Positions 12,971 through 22,303 of a stretch of DNA of 31,687 nucleotides are shown here, piece by piece. Made by a program: the position numbers and the translations under genes. The DNA lies in IMG/VR virus record IMGVR_UViG_3300025168_000024, positions 1-31,687 of that record. One strand, 5' to 3'. Position 1 is the stretch's first letter. Every line of letters starts with the position of its first letter. Origin of the DNA: a virus. The notes under the pieces were generated by a model, which had not been told where the DNA came from, searched no databases, and saw only the letters and a list, made by a program, of their open reading frames with translations.

Positions 12971-13399
12971 ATGAGAGATATTGATGAAATAATTATTCAC
13001 GCAACTGCAACCAATCCGAGTTGGATGGCAGATAAACCTGTCGAAGATGTAGTTACTGAAATCCGTAGATGGCACGTTGAGGAACGAAAGTGGTCTGATA
13101 TAGGTTATCATGCCGTAATCCATAGAGATGGCTCAGTGGGCTTTGGACGGCCTGTCGAGCGATCTGGCGCTCATGTTGGCGGTAGAAACAAGACAACTAT
13201 CGGAGTCAGCCTAGTCGGTGGTCGAGGTGGAATAGCTGATGGTGAGTTCTCTGATAGCTTTACTCCAGAGCAGGAATCAGCATTGAGAAATCTAATCGAG
13301 GATTATAAAACTCAGTTTCCTAGCATCAAAGCAGTGACAGGCCATAACGAGTATGCGTCAAAAGCCTGTCCTTGTTTTAGCGTAAGATCTTGGCTTTAA
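12971..13399 (+). CDS. Endolysin: N-acetylmuramoyl-L-alanine amidase (T7 lysozyme-like)
   Basis: 142 residues, close to T7 lysozyme (151). It cleaves the amide bond between muramic acid and L-alanine. Zinc ligands are placed at H10 (IIIHATAT), H125 (TGHNEY) and C133 (KACPCF), with the catalytic pair Y46 (IGYHAVI) and K131. H68 in SGAHVGG is also conserved in the Amidase_2 fold. There is no signal peptide, so export relies on the holin genes upstream. Its last 23 bases overlap the end of the opposite-strand transporter gene. Confidence 0.9.
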   Translation: MRDIDEIIIHATATNPSWMADKPVEDVVTEIRRWHVEERKWSDIGYHAVIHRDGSVGFGRPVERSGAHVGGRNKTTIGVSLVGGRGGIADGEFSDSFTPEQESALRNLIEDYKTQFPSIKAVTGHNEYASKACPCFSVRSWL

Positions 13400-13895
13400 T
13401 AATTATCGCCGCCAGTAAACTAATAGCAATTTTTCCTATTATCTGACCTTCAATGTAGGCTAATGATTGGAAAGCTATAAAAAGAAATACAGCACTATCG
13501 AGGATCGAGCCTACGATTCCAGAAGCGGCTATCGCTAAAGCTCTGTCTTTTTTTCTGACGTAAGTATAAACGGCAAAGTCGAATAGTTCTGAAGTTGCAA
13601 ACGCAACAAAACTTGCCAGAGCGATAAAAGGGTCTGCAAGAAAATAAGATAAAACTGCTCCGAGAGTAATTGCAGCTATAGACCATTTAGTTCCAAAATG
13701 TTCCTGCACATAATCACGCAAAACTAACGCAAGTCCTACCATCAAAACGCCAGACGGTGCAGTATATCCAAAGCCAACAGGAATCATGCAAGGCCCATCA
13801 GGAACGCAGAAAGTTCCGACATTACCTATCATAAAGTTCGCTATTGGTATAGTTGCCATGTAACCAACTATAAAAGTCCATTTTGTTAAATTCAT
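13377..13895 (-). CDS. yhhQ: Queuosine-precursor transporter, VUT/YhhQ family
   Basis: 172 residues with about five membrane helices. The second half carries the YhhQ signature pattern: ATSELFDFAVYTYVRKK (about residues 100-116) and then GIVGSILDSAVFLFIAF, which matches the corresponding E. coli YhhQ segments (an L-D-x-x-V-x-x-R turn, then G-x-x-x-D-x-x-x-F-F). YhhQ imports 7-deazaguanine precursors such as preQ0 and preQ1. It is shorter than the E. coli protein (about 221) at the N-terminus. AGGAGG lies 6 bases before the ATG. It follows the DpdA-like gene on the same strand, so it probably supplies that enzyme's substrate. Confidence 0.82.
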   Translation of the reverse strand: MNLTKWTFIVGYMATIPIANFMIGNVGTFCVPDGPCMIPVGFGYTAPSGVLMVGLALVLRDYVQEHFGTKWSIAAITLGAVLSYFLADPFIALASFVAFATSELFDFAVYTYVRKKDRALAIAASGIVGSILDSAVFLFIAFQSLAYIEGQIIGKIAISLLAAIIIKAKILR

Positions 13896-13904
13896 TTTTT
13901 CCTC

Positions 13905-14504
13905 CTATAAATTAAAAATGGTTTGAGTATTTAGTTCTTTTAGCCAATTATTTAGTTTGACTTTATTTTTATCTGGCCCAAAAGCCAGAAAAGTTCCATC
14001 AACGCTATCGCAACCAAGCACAGCCGCTAAACGCAATCGTTTAAATGAATTGACGCGCCCCATATGAACCCATTTTGACCGTCTTTTACCTTCCGCTATT
14101 ATATCTCCTGCTGCTTGGCTTAGTTTCCACTCTGTGCTTCCACCAATAAAAACACTATCCATTTTTTCCCAATCTATAAGATCAGGTCTTTCTCCATCTT
14201 GACAAACGTAACTAGCTTGAAAGCCTAACTCTCGTATTATTTTTAACATAGGATAAGCCCTTAATCGCGTAGCTTCAGCATCTCCTACAACATCTGGAGC
14301 AGTTGCAAACAAACAGCTTTTTGCATCTAGTTTTTTTAGCCAATTTATAAAACCTTTATCAGAATATTTATCAGGTTGAACGAAGCAACCATTATCTGCC
14401 GCAAAAATGTTATGACCATTGATGCCTTGTTTTCCTGCATTGAAACTAAGCATTACACCAATTTGATCGGTGCATTGGATCTTTTTACCGCTTAAATAAA
14501 TCAT
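13905..14504 (-). CDS. dpdA: DpdA-like 7-deazaguanine DNA transglycosylase (TGT superfamily)
   Basis: 199 residues from the ATG at 14504, which overlaps the upstream stop by one base (TGATG). TTG and GTG codons just upstream are less likely starts. Motifs follow the TGT barrel in order: FAADNGCF (D37, like DSGGFQ), ATAPDVVGD (D71), YVCQDG (Q102, like the I-V-Q-G-G strand), FIGGSTEWK (G121-G122), HMGRVNS (147-153) and GCDSVDGT (D166/D169, nucleophile region). The tRNA-TGT zinc Cys cluster is missing and the protein is about half TGT length, as in short phage DpdA proteins. The expected reaction swaps guanine in DNA for a 7-deazaguanine. The adjacent transporter supports this. Confidence 0.72.
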   Translation of the reverse strand: MIYLSGKKIQCTDQIGVMLSFNAGKQGINGHNIFAADNGCFVQPDKYSDKGFINWLKKLDAKSCLFATAPDVVGDAEATRLRAYPMLKIIRELGFQASYVCQDGERPDLIDWEKMDSVFIGGSTEWKLSQAAGDIIAEGKRRSKWVHMGRVNSFKRLRLAAVLGCDSVDGTFLAFGPDKNKVKLNNWLKELNTQTIFNL

Positions 14505-14710
14505 CACCAAGGTCTTAGTTTGGGTGATACTGTGCGTGAAGCAACCTCGCTGATGTCACAGTAACCCATCTCTGCATTTATCTGATCGTAGAGCGTATTG
14601 CTATTCATTAGTACGCTCCAACAATCTTCCTCGCTAGAAAACCAAATACTGACATACATCATATTATCGAGGACTGTGTAACCAAGCGTTAAAAGCGTCC
14701 AGTAATCCAT
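14504..14710 (-). CDS. Small protein of unknown function
   Basis: 68 residues with two Cys (EEDCWSV, MGYCDIS), aromatic residues near the N-terminus and a basic C-terminus. The ATG at 14710 overlaps the preceding stop (TAATG) and the gene's own stop overlaps the DpdA-like start, so it sits tightly within the operon. MYVSIWFSSEEDCW looks like a conserved core. An internal ATG pair at residues 17-18 could be the true start. No function is assigned, although the coupling to DpdA makes it worth testing as an accessory. Confidence 0.55.
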   Translation of the reverse strand: MDYWTLLTLGYTVLDNMMYVSIWFSSEEDCWSVLMNSNTLYDQINAEMGYCDISEVASRTVSPKLRPW

Positions 14711-17203: not shown

Positions 17204-17508
17204 GAATAATCAGCCCCATACAACTCGCGCCACTTTTTTTTATTATCGTGTATTGCAACAGCTTTTGATTTATCCCAGAGTGCTTGATGATGTCCATCAC
17301 ATAAGGGTATGGCTGCGAGATCACTAGTTTTTCGTGTGCCATACCTGTCGTGAATAGGATGATGGGCTGTTGTCGGTGATTGTTGAACCATTCCGAACCT
17401 CTGACAAACGCAACAAGGCATCGCTCGGATCTTATCGAGATATTTAGCGTTCTTTTTCGCTTTAGGCTTTTTAAGTCCTGTCGGTGGTCTATTTGCTAGA
17501 TTGGTCAA
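17176..17508 (-). CDS. Ref-like / DUF968-type HNH nuclease
   Basis: 110 residues. MPCCVCQ (C32, C33, C35), AHHPIHD (H49-H50) and PLCDGHHQALWDK (C70, H73-H74) form the Cys/His pattern of phage P1 Ref and DUF968 HNH proteins, which bind zinc and can nick DNA at RecA filaments. The basic N-terminus (GLKKPKAKKNAK) probably contacts DNA. The only possible standard start in the open frame before the Cys motif is TTG at 17508, since the frame closes at a TAG (17521-17523). The gene overlaps its upstream neighbour by 20 bases. Confidence 0.7.
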   Translation of the reverse strand: MTNLANRPPTGLKKPKAKKNAKYLDKIRAMPCCVCQRFGMVQQSPTTAHHPIHDRYGTRKTSDLAAIPLCDGHHQALWDKSKAVAIHDNKKKWRELYGADYSYSVQDTQI

Positions 17509-17890
17509 CTGGATCGTATCCTATCGCCTCTGTTAGTTTTTGCATGGCAAGTTCGAAGTAGTTATTAAACTCCTGTTGGCTCATATCATCAAACGAAATA
17601 CTGTCCATTACTCGCATATGAGCGCTTGCTAGTGAGTTCCATCGCATTTTGACATAACCACAAGCCCATTTCAATTCGCTATGTAGGTGATGCTCTGTAG
17701 GCCATCGCTGAGTTGTTTTGCATACATCTCTAAGCACTCCCCAATATAAATTATGATGAGGGTTCGATCTTTTGCCTGTCGAGGTTAAATTAAAGAAGCT
17801 GCCATCTTTGAAATCTTCCATCCGTTGGGCATCATATTTAGTGATGGGCAATAACTGCCCACCCTTAAATTCAACTTGTATCTTAGACAT
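17489..17890 (-). CDS. DUF1367/NinB-like recombination-associated protein
   Basis: 133 residues from the ATG at 17890 (MSKIQVEFKGGQLLPIT). A longer reading to 18028 lies inside the upstream gene and is not credible. The KRSNPHHNLYWGVLRDV core (about 46-62) and SISFDDMSQQEFNNYFELA (96-114) match the pattern of DUF1367 proteins from lambdoid recombination regions. Proteins of this kind sit with SSB and RusA and may load recombinases. The ATG overlaps the previous stop by 8 bases. Confidence 0.55.
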   Translation of the reverse strand: MSKIQVEFKGGQLLPITKYDAQRMEDFKDGSFFNLTSTGKRSNPHHNLYWGVLRDVCKTTQRWPTEHHLHSELKWACGYVKMRWNSLASAHMRVMDSISFDDMSQQEFNNYFELAMQKLTEAIGYDPVDQSSK

Positions 17891-18200
17891 TATCCCACTC
17901 GTTCCCATCAAAATAGCTGACTTTACGGTTTCGAGTCTGGAAGAACCCATCGTATTGAGGGAACTCATCCATAAATTTACGAGCGTAATGGCTAATCCAT
18001 CCATCGTTAAGTTTGTAGTCGGCTGCAACTTCTCCGATAGCTGTATCCCATCTCATGCGATGAAATATGGCTTTAGCTGAAAAGTAATCGCGTCTGGCGG
18101 CTACTTGCATTGCATATTTTACAAACCCTTCCCAGATATGAGGGTTTTCTTTGTCGTAGGATTCAAAGTTCTCTGTTGTATAATCTCCGTTAGCTTTCAT
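17883..18200 (-). CDS. Conserved phage protein of unknown function
   Basis: 105 residues with ESYDKENPHIWEGFVKYAMQ (13-32), IFHRMRWDTAIGE (45-57) and HYARKFMDEFPQYDGFFQTR (71-90). This pattern is widespread in temperate and marine phages near recombination genes, but I know of no proven function. It is mostly helical. AAGGAGAG precedes the ATG. It sits between SSB and the DUF1367-like gene in one transcript. Confidence 0.6.
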   Translation of the reverse strand: MKANGDYTTENFESYDKENPHIWEGFVKYAMQVAARRDYFSAKAIFHRMRWDTAIGEVAADYKLNDGWISHYARKFMDEFPQYDGFFQTRNRKVSYFDGNEWDNV

Positions 18201-18211
18201 TTTTGCTCTCC

Positions 18212-18586
18212 TTAAAATGGTATCTCATCGTCAAAGTCTTGGTTAGTATTATCAGAGTTCTCACTATTCTCTGATGTATCCTCGGATTGATCCTGAGTTG
18301 TTACTTTACGATCATTCCAGAATTTAATGTGGCTTGCTCGAACATTGTGAAATGTTTTAGTTCCTTTCTCCTCAATACTTAGAGATCCAGTCACTACGAC
18401 TTTCGTTCCTTTGAGTAAGTATTGTGCGATGTTGGTTTGATACGAGATACAGCTAAACCAGTTTGTTTTTTGATTGTCTCTTGAGCCTTCTGTAACCGCG
18501 ACAGAAAAGGTAATAAACTCCCCTTTCTGGTTCGATTGAACTTCAGCGCTTTTACCGAGATTCCCTGCAATTGTAATAACTTTCAT
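18212..18586 (-). CDS. ssb: Single-stranded DNA-binding protein
   Basis: 124 residues with an OB-fold N-terminal part (MKVITIAGNLGKSAEVQ; WFSCISYQTNIAQYLLKG; VVVTGSL) and a disordered acidic tail ending D-D-E-I-P-F, the SSB tip that recruits host partner proteins. It protects and organises ssDNA in replication and annealing. The ATG overlaps the stop of the annealing-protein gene (ATGA), the usual pairing of SSB with a phage recombinase. Confidence 0.92.
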   Translation of the reverse strand: MKVITIAGNLGKSAEVQSNQKGEFITFSVAVTEGSRDNQKTNWFSCISYQTNIAQYLLKGTKVVVTGSLSIEEKGTKTFHNVRASHIKFWNDRKVTTQDQSEDTSENSENSDNTNQDFDDEIPF

Positions 18587-19167
18587 AATCCTAACTCCAA
18601 TTTCTTTTGTTCGTAAACTTCTTCGACATATTGAGCGACATCACTGTTCGTAACGTATTTTTCGCTCCATCTTCTCCATTGTTCGATAGCTTCATCTAAC
18701 GATATTTGACTATCGCAGAATTTAAAACCCTTTCGCCACTTCTCTATGGCTCTCCTCATATCAGGCTCTAAATCCCTTAACGATTGTGCTAAGTTAAACT
18801 CATCGGCTTCGTCTTGGCTGTAAACATCACCATGCAAACCAACTAACTTTAATATAACTCGATCTTTGGCTCGTTTCTCTGCCATTGCAAAGGGGTAAGC
18901 GTTTTTATTGTTGTATGGAGCAGCTTCACCAATAGACCACTCTGATGCGTCTTTCATATGGCCTGTGACGCTTAAAACTGCATACTTTTCTTTTACCGAG
19001 CTTTCGATAATCTTAGGCTCGTCAAAAACTATACCGTTATGAGCAGCTATCTTTTCGCAGGCTTTATGCAATACGACAGGCGTTCCGTGACAATCCCATG
19101 TAGCTTGGCGCTCTGTTAATTTAACTTCTTTTAATAATTCTTGTAATCTCTCAGGCAGTTGTTTCAT
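18583..19167 (-). CDS. Probable single-strand annealing protein (Rad52/Erf/Sak-like)
   Basis: 194 residues. TWDCHGTPVVLHKACEKIA (23-41), EWSIGEAAPYNNKNAYPFAM (76-95) and AEKRAKDRVILKLVGLHG (96-113) match a phage family that usually sits with ssb. The strand-turn-helix core with A-x-x-R-A-x-x-R-x-x-L-K resembles Rad52-like annealing proteins. The expected role is annealing complementary ssDNA for recombination-dependent replication. The identification rests on genomic pairing and pattern, so a different DNA-repair role cannot be excluded. It overlaps its upstream gene by 17 bases. Confidence 0.6.
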   Translation of the reverse strand: MKQLPERLQELLKEVKLTERQATWDCHGTPVVLHKACEKIAAHNGIVFDEPKIIESSVKEKYAVLSVTGHMKDASEWSIGEAAPYNNKNAYPFAMAEKRAKDRVILKLVGLHGDVYSQDEADEFNLAQSLRDLEPDMRRAIEKWRKGFKFCDSQISLDEAIEQWRRWSEKYVTNSDVAQYVEEVYEQKKLELGL

Positions 19168-21097: not shown

Positions 21098-22303
21098 ATG
21101 GAATGGCCCTCAGACAAAGTTGAACGAACAAGTATTAAATCAATTACACCGTATGCTCGGAATAGCAGAACTCACAGCGATGAACAGGTTGCACAGATAG
21201 CGGCAAGCATCAAAGAGTGGGGTTTCACAACGCCAATTTTAATAGATACCGATGGCGAAATCATAGCAGGACATGGCAGACTACTCGCTGCTCAACGGCT
21301 TGGACTCGAAGAAGTACCGACTATGACAGCCAAAGGATGGTCGGAAGCACAGAAACGAGCCTACGTCATCGCAGATAATAAACTTGCCCTCAATGCAGGG
21401 TGGAACGATGAGATGCTTAAAATAGAGCTAGATGGACTCAAAGAGTTAGATTTTGATCTGGATCTAGTAGGTTTTAGCGATGAGGAACTAGCCAAGTTAC
21501 TGCAAGAGCCTGAGAAAGAAGGGCTTACAGATGAGGACGATGTTCCCGAAGCACCAGAGAAACCTATTACTGTCGAGGGTGATATTTGGGTTCTAGGCAA
21601 TCATCGCCTTATGTGTGGGGATAGTACCAGTGTTGATGCAGTTGATATTCTTATGACAGGTGAAAAAGCTGATTTGATCCATACCGATCCACCCTATGGA
21701 ATTGGATATGGAGGATCAATGAAATTAGGGCAAGAAAAACATGGTTGGAAACAGCATAAAGGTGGTTGGGATGAAGAAAGGCCACCAAAGGAATTTTTTG
21801 ATCTGGCAGAATTACAATGTGAAAATCGGATTATATGGGGGGGCAACTATTTTAGTGATTTTTTACCTCCTACAATGGGGTGGTTAATTTGGGATAAAGG
21901 GCAAAGAGGATTTAGTTTAGCTGATGGGGAAATGGCTTGGACTTCTTTTAATAATGCTATGAGAATTAAAGAATATGCAAGAGCAAAGTCTAATCGAGAA
22001 GAAAGGCTTCATGCAACTCAAAAGCCCATAGAGTTAATACAGTGGGTTTTAGACTATGCAGATAGACATTCAAAGAAAAAACCTTATATTATATTAGATT
22101 TTTTTGGAGGTTCGGGATCAACTTTAATAGCTTGTGCAAAAACTAATAGAGTTTGTTATACTATGGAGCTAGATCCAAAATTTTGCGATGTTATTATAAA
22201 AAGATGGCAGGATTTCACAGGAGAGAAAGCTGTGCTACAATCATCAGGAAAAACATTTGATGAGTTGAAGTCAGAAAACGAGGCAGATCATGGCAAAAGG
22301 TGA
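21098..22303 (+). CDS. ParB-domain / DNA methyltransferase fusion (beta-class N4/N6)
   Basis: 401 residues. Residues 1-110 are a ParB/Srx-like domain with GHGRLLAAQRLGLEEVP, which resembles the ParB box. A linker precedes the methyltransferase domain: DPPYGIGY at 197-204 (motif IV, N6-adenine or N4-cytosine type) and FFGGSGST at 335-342 (motif I, S-adenosylmethionine site). Motif IV before motif I is the beta-class order. It would methylate phage DNA, probably against restriction. Its end overlaps terS by 14 bases, tying it to packaging. The specificity cannot be read from sequence. Confidence 0.88.
   Translation: MEWPSDKVERTSIKSITPYARNSRTHSDEQVAQIAASIKEWGFTTPILIDTDGEIIAGHGRLLAAQRLGLEEVPTMTAKGWSEAQKRAYVIADNKLALNAGWNDEMLKIELDGLKELDFDLDLVGFSDEELAKLLQEPEKEGLTDEDDVPEAPEKPITVEGDIWVLGNHRLMCGDSTSVDAVDILMTGEKADLIHTDPPYGIGYGGSMKLGQEKHGWKQHKGGWDEERPPKEFFDLAELQCENRIIWGGNYFSDFLPPTMGWLIWDKGQRGFSLADGEMAWTSFNNAMRIKEYARAKSNREERLHATQKPIELIQWVLDYADRHSKKKPYIILDFFGGSGSTLIACAKTNRVCYTMELDPKFCDVIIKRWQDFTGEKAVLQSSGKTFDELKSENEADHGKR

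Follow-up and report, generated by a model that had tools for sequence, protein, structure and literature searches.

The locus analysed here raises the question of whether two adjacent phage genes, one for a small protein of the tRNA-guanine transglycosylase (TGT) superfamily and the other for a YhhQ-type membrane protein, act together to bring in a 7-deazaguanine base and to place it in a nucleic acid and, if so, in which one. The window, by which we mean the whole stretch of DNA analysed, is a 31,687-base IMG/VR virus record, the linear and possibly fragmentary sequence of a marine phage whose terminase shares no more than 47% identity with those of a spread of phages. A sequence-only reading had placed the two ORFs 9 bases apart on one strand, and inspection of the coordinates and of the junction confirmed this (Table 1). 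Within the junction, TATAGGAGGAAAAAATG, the AGGAGG of the transporter gene overlaps the TAG stop of the transglycosylase gene, and the two genes form an operon. The 68-residue ORF just upstream, which matched nothing in Pfam or PHROG, is probably on the same transcript as the transglycosylase gene. On its other side, the transporter gene lies tail to tail with an amidase gene (12971-13399, plus strand), which it overlaps by 23 bases. The minus-strand genes farther upstream also include, by PHROG match, one for an HNH protein. The pair lies at the far downstream end of these minus-strand genes, which from their order look like an early DNA-metabolism block. Elsewhere in the window (21098-22303), a ParB-N domain is fused to an N6/N4 DNA methyltransferase (PHROG 498; a type II methyltransferase by PADLOC), a second possible DNA-modification gene of this phage.

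Table 1. Positions of the gene pair, of its surroundings in the window and of one split relative in another phage.
Feature	Position	Strand	Remarks
Compact DpdA/TGT-superfamily transglycosylase	13905..14504	-	ATG at 14504, TAG at 13905; 199 aa
YhhQ/QPTR (Vut_1) type putative 7-deazaguanine-precursor transporter	13377..13895	-	ATG at 13895; 172 aa
Junction: transglycosylase stop overlaps Shine-Dalgarno of transporter gene (TAGGAGG)	13896..13907	-	Direct sequence reading
68-aa ORF upstream of transglycosylase gene	14504..14710	-	Stop overlaps transglycosylase start by one base (TGATG)
Same-strand block upstream of the pair	17489..19167	-	PHROG matches
NinB/Orf-like recombination mediator	17489-18028	-	PHROG match
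SSB	18212-18586	-	PHROG match
Split compact gene of Escherichia phage phiG7	L129:6896-7488 (record 13244-13836)		Just before DNA polymerase gene

Single-sequence searches with the 199-residue protein against Pfam, NCBIfam and the PDB returned nothing significant, and its profile matches to PDB chains (e.g. 2jve) were short and seem to be chance hits. The sole significant family was PHROG 15826, of unknown function (phrog_15826, E 1.7e-54). Because only this family was significant, and the protein fell into neither PHROG 887 nor PHROG 7068, we consider the compact enzymes a separate family. A search of viral contigs gave 116 related stretches, from which 80 loci were kept; relatives were also found in 24 phage records, 175 plasmid records and 32 bacterial-genome loci, and the family is present in actinobacterial genomes. 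The plasmid records are mostly from Pseudomonas (137), with some from Deinococcus, Nocardia and Streptomyces, and the relatives that they carry are distant (27-46% identity among the matches listed, e.g. L119 and L121). Some of the relatives in Mycobacterium, Arthrobacter and Rhodococcus phages are annotated as 'DpdA-like tRNA-guanine transglycosylase', and Bhagsy gp55, Aoka gp40, Sonali gp81 and ReqiPine5 gp03 are family members of the same length as the window's enzyme and 47-49% identical to it. Most members have about 190-230 residues, so that the protein, taken earlier for a short DpdA, is of normal size for its own family. With a length of about 200 residues typical of the family and an invariant active site (see below), a truncated or decayed DpdA can be ruled out. 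To our knowledge, few base exchangers with a TGT fold would be smaller than an enzyme of roughly 200 residues.

A structure prediction with AlphaFold2, based on 54 aligned relatives, produced a confident model (pLDDT 92.6, pTM 0.89) of a bare (beta/alpha)8 TIM barrel, in which D37, D71, Q102, GG121-122, H147 and D169 are located at, or just past, the C-terminal ends of the barrel strands. The chain stops just past the barrel helix and has no counterpart of the C-terminal zinc- and tRNA-binding part (CxCxxC) of E. coli Tgt. In a Foldseek search of the PDB, an archaeosine TGT ranked first (E 3e-5) and the bacterial DpdA 7ui4 was in the list; in VIA-align, TGTs were the best solved matches (Z 15.1, rmsd 2.9, 194 residues aligned). 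The superfamily assignment made from the sequence thus agrees with the predicted structure. Other TIM barrels came close behind, however (5umf, Z 14.7), and the fold alone is therefore not decisive. A comparison by hhalign with nine long phage DpdAs gave a match with a probability of 91% and an E value of 9.6e-7 over 159 columns. On the sequence evidence, it is this profile match, and not the fold alone, that settles the relationship of the compact enzyme to DpdA; together with the DpdA-type histidine described below, it bears out the DpdA-like character proposed earlier. No hhalign match was found to E. coli Tgt or to the DpdA2 of Vibrio phage nt-1 (YP_008125322), each represented by a single sequence, which makes a poor profile and hence weak evidence. 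The best viral structural match was BFVD A0A0F7L9Z1, a protein of an uncultured marine virus; as that protein has 499 residues, the compact domain may also occur fused to another domain.

We then scored the conservation of the active site over 54 relatives. The motif positions named in the sequence-only reading (D37, D71, Q102, GG121-122 and D166/D169) were all correct, and D37, P70, D71, Q102, G104, G122, H147, G149, R150, N152, D169 and G170 were invariant. G121 was kept in 51 of the 54 relatives, and D166 was variable (46 of 54). The catalytic set, that is, two base-binding aspartates, a glutamine, a GG loop and the aspartate nucleophile, is ordered as in E. coli Tgt. Although hhalign sets D166 opposite the aspartate of the long DpdAs, the distance from H147 to D169 equals the ungapped His-to-Asp spacing in a stretch of the DpdA 7ui4, VHLLGIARPESFADFIRLGVTSIDS. 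We conclude that D169 is the nucleophile, since it is invariant, D166 varies and the spacing in 7ui4 fits without a gap; the variability of D166, set against the invariance of D169, rules out the former. H147, present in all 54 relatives, aligns with histidine 196 of the DpdA of a Nonagvirus (SP8_0081). A histidine at position 196 has been named as conserved in DpdA (PMC6884629), and we took the numbering of the 9g protein to equal that of SP8_0081 from the genus that the two phages share. E. coli Tgt has a leucine at the matching position.

The DpdA of phages such as 9g, CAjan and Rosebush (PHROG 887; PMC6884629) also belongs to the TGT superfamily and has the same order of motifs as the compact family (DSGAF/DNGCF, LDxIGD/PDVVGD, GG, the conserved histidine and DS..D). 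Both kinds of enzyme occur in phages that also encode preQ0 genes or a YhhQ transporter. They differ in length, about 290-350 residues as opposed to about 200, and are distant in sequence (E 1e-6, profile against profile; PHROG 887 and PHROG 15826, respectively). In contrast to phage DpdA, the compact enzyme is usually encoded alone with a Vut gene or beside a long DpdA. DpdA2 of Vibrio phage nt-1, a phage DpdA encoded in a preQ0 cluster, is with 464 residues more than twice as long as the compact enzyme, and lacks the conserved histidine (PMC6884629) that the compact family keeps.

The second protein of the pair, of 172 residues, matched Vut_1 of Pfam with an E value of 2.4e-12 (47.9 bits, above the cut-off of 27.2), TIGR00697 of NCBIfam (queuosine precursor transporter) with 9.5e-13 (48.4 bits, below the cut-off of 50.95) and phrog_4899 with 1.2e-37. 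It was modelled by AlphaFold2 with a pLDDT of 95.9 and six predicted membrane helices, and the model weakly resembles ECF S-components in the PDB. Its description as a YhhQ-type transporter is thus upheld by Vut_1, with TIGR00697 falling just under its threshold. The Vut_1 domain is common to it and to the YhhQ/QPTR proteins (COG1738, PF02592, TIGR00697). Unlike YhhQ, it stays under the cut-offs of both TIGR00697 and PRK11212; it is also shorter than the 221-position model of E. coli YhhQ, and its N-terminal part has diverged. E. coli YhhQ transports preQ0 (PMC5372724). The E. coli QPTR takes up both preQ0 and preQ1 but not queuine, which is taken up by another member (PMC11130926).

Is the pairing of the two genes peculiar to the window? 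Profile searches for Vut neighbours of the compact enzyme in 121 loci found a Vut gene adjoining the enzyme gene in 82, on the same strand in all 82, at a distance of 413 bases at most and of 50 bases or fewer in 73. Same-strand neighbourhood at this frequency is not expected by chance, and the pair recurs in many phages unrelated to one another as well as on some plasmids and in some genomes of bacteria. After clustering of the enzymes at 70% identity, a Vut neighbour was present in 44 of the 70 clusters (31 of 41 from IMG/VR and 10 of 23 from genome contigs). The remaining 26 clusters count against the joint import and insertion of a base proposed below; no clear replacement transporter was seen beside the compact gene in the loci that lack Vut. 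The Vut gene adjoins the compact gene, or is one gene away from it, in Bhagsy, ReqiPine5 and Aoka, and all 41 aligned Vut partners matched TIGR00697 at an E value of 0.01 or better. In the group to which the window belongs, the transporter gene follows the enzyme gene, and in most others, Bhagsy, ReqiPine5 and Aoka included, it precedes it; along the enzyme tree the order changed at least three times. Partners have changed too: one group of close relatives, L012 and L020-L027, has enzymes with 55-67% identity to that of the window, and the Vut protein, encoded upstream, is 37-48% identical to the window's; in other close relatives, the Vut protein is 63-73% identical to it. That order and partner are shuffled and adjacency is kept points to a functional tie between the enzyme and Vut. 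Among the four plasmid loci read, a Vut gene adjoins the compact gene in one, on a Streptomyces plasmid (L118). In a Vut-less locus (L045:8226-8654), the compact gene is followed by a gene that, by eye, resembles those for nucleoside deoxyribosyltransferases.

If the enzyme uses a 7-deazaguanine, the base has to come from somewhere, and the sequence-only reading had held that the phage makes no precursor itself. Profile searches of the window detected neither QueC nor PTPS (QueD), both of whose models matched in control genomes, and no long DpdA (PHROG 887), for which the control genomes also gave no match and other phages did. This part of the claim stands for the window, which as a 31.7-kb fragment limits what can be said of the phage. 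The complete phages Bhagsy, ReqiPine5 and Aoka, however, have the pair and lack QueC, QueD and long DpdA. Since Mycobacterium has no Q-pathway genes at all (PMC6884629), Bhagsy must import the base from outside the cell. A preQ1 riboswitch would have been independent evidence of the ligand; the window and 15 loci yielded none, which counts against the use of such a base.

Elsewhere, synthesis genes accompany the compact gene, as does a long DpdA (L028/L032, Sonali, R29Z, phiG7 and L063/G033). In L028 (5218-9830), as in L032, an uninterrupted row encodes long DpdA, QueF, QueC, FolE, the compact enzyme, QueD and QueE, placing two different transglycosylases within one preQ1-type operon. Sonali has no Vut gene; in its place it carries QueC, QueD, QueE and a long DpdA. 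Escherichia phage phiG7 (a Seuratvirus) carries a Vut gene, and its compact gene, split over two overlapping ORFs (Table 1), may be frameshifted. The position of the compact gene in or near preQ0-synthesis clusters in L028/L032, Sonali and R29Z supports a role in inserting such a base. Against it stands that those phages with preQ0 genes have a long DpdA as well, which leaves no evident need for the compact enzyme. Records with a Vut gene tended to lack synthesis genes and vice versa (Fisher p 0.035 over 42 related records), which is only a hint. Also against insertion, Mycobacterium phage Orion, which has DpdA only and is not among the compact-family matches, showed no detectable modification (PMC6884629).

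Taking these analyses together, we think it probable that the pair imports a 7-deazaguanine base and inserts it in nucleic acid, with phage DNA as the likeliest target. The YhhQ-type protein would raise the uptake of preQ0, preQ1 or a similar base, and the 199-residue enzyme would use the TGT mechanism to put the imported base in the place of guanine in a polynucleotide, with D37, D71, Q102 and the GG loop holding the base and with D169 as the covalent nucleophile. We infer the transport and exchange steps from the established functions of TGT/DpdA and YhhQ proteins. The polynucleotide would most likely be the phage's own DNA, in which a 7-deazaguanine would protect against restriction. DNA appears the likeliest target because the enzyme has a DpdA-type histidine, matches the DpdA profile and lacks the C-terminal tRNA-binding part, and also because the pair is used in phages whose host is without a Q-tRNA pathway. 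The distant copies on plasmids and in bacterial genomes, for which protection of phage DNA is not an obvious role, argue against this reading.

Could the target be tRNA? The enzyme might modify host or phage tRNA with an imported queuosine precursor and so help decoding: it has the TGT fold, its top solved matches are tRNA enzymes, the role of YhhQ in bacteria is salvage for tRNA queuosine (PMC5372724), and fusions of QPTR to bacterial TGT exist (PMC11130926). We nevertheless regard this as unlikely, because the protein consists of the barrel alone and lacks the C-terminal zinc-cysteine part of E. coli Tgt, has a DpdA-type histidine where Tgt has leucine, and matches phage DpdA by profile and not the single E. 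coli Tgt sequence; moreover, mycobacteria have no Q-tRNA pathway (PMC6884629) and yet their phages carry the pair. The coexistence of the compact protein with a long DpdA in L028/L032, L063, Sonali, R29Z and phiG7 would also fit an accessory subunit, or a partner conferring a second specificity, of the long phage DpdA or of a host enzyme, and TGTs do act as dimers, the eukaryotic TGT being a heterodimer (solved PDB entries). The catalytic residues are all invariant, however, which is unusual for a non-catalytic subunit, and most records, including those of the complete phages Bhagsy, ReqiPine5 and Aoka, are without a long DpdA, so that a partner subunit also seems an improbable explanation.

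Two further alternatives concern the reaction itself. Base exchange is reversible in principle, and with copies also on bacterial plasmids and chromosomes the enzyme might remove or recycle modified bases, for instance from modified host DNA, or exchange small molecules, with the transporter handling the released base. We found no recurring partner for nuclease activity or host-DNA degradation in the loci read, and the synthesis genes that accompany the enzyme in L028/L032 and Sonali speak for insertion; a reaction in this direction thus seems quite improbable. Finally, Cap10 of type IV CBASS, a member of the TGT family remodelled into a protein-conjugating enzyme (PMC11996544), has the TGT fold and was among the best structural matches of the compact enzyme (9ntn, Z 14.7), which raises the prospect that the compact enzyme attaches 7-deazaguanine to a protein. 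The Z score of Cap10 is tied with those of ordinary TGTs, though, and Cap10 works with Cap9 and a nucleotidyltransferase, whereas no CBASS nucleotidyltransferase or Cap9-like gene was seen beside the compact gene; PADLOC reported nothing for either protein of the pair. Conjugation to protein is accordingly very improbable.

Import and insertion of a 7-deazaguanine base by a phage is, as an idea, not wholly new, as the sequence-only reading had itself allowed: phage DpdA with a YhhQ transporter has already been published, and the components of the pair and the general idea are known. The regular pairing of the compact family with a transporter was undescribed in the literature searched, although the 2023 NAR and 2024 MMBR work on phage 7-deazaguanines may name the family; the same holds for its changes of partner, for the copies on plasmids and in actinobacterial genomes and for its coexistence with long DpdA. 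If import and insertion is correct, phages can modify nucleic acid without a synthesis pathway, using a base taken from their surroundings through an importer of their own, and the question left open in PMC6884629, namely the source of the base in DpdA-only phages, would be answered. In phages of Mycobacterium smegmatis, a host that lacks the whole pathway, there should then be no modification unless preQ0 or preQ1 is added. The small size of the compact enzyme would also make it useful for studying what decides between DNA and tRNA.

More tentatively, the compact family could be a functionally distinct, second kind of transglycosylase, a two-gene cassette that uses imported bases and that is added on top of the long DpdA in phages that make the base. 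What might set it apart, if so, is the sequence context, the base, the polymer or a role as a partner subunit, a view that we hold as possible but doubtful. It would then be a portable module common to phages and bacterial plasmids and not just a small DpdA. Genes for PP-loop proteins of the PAPS-reductase family were also seen at the compact gene: one is the next gene downstream in ReqiPine5 (L083:4601-5518), and another lies near the compact gene of Erythrobacter phage R6L (L130:6361-7404). By PADLOC, the PP-loop protein of ReqiPine5 weakly matches BrxP and DndC.
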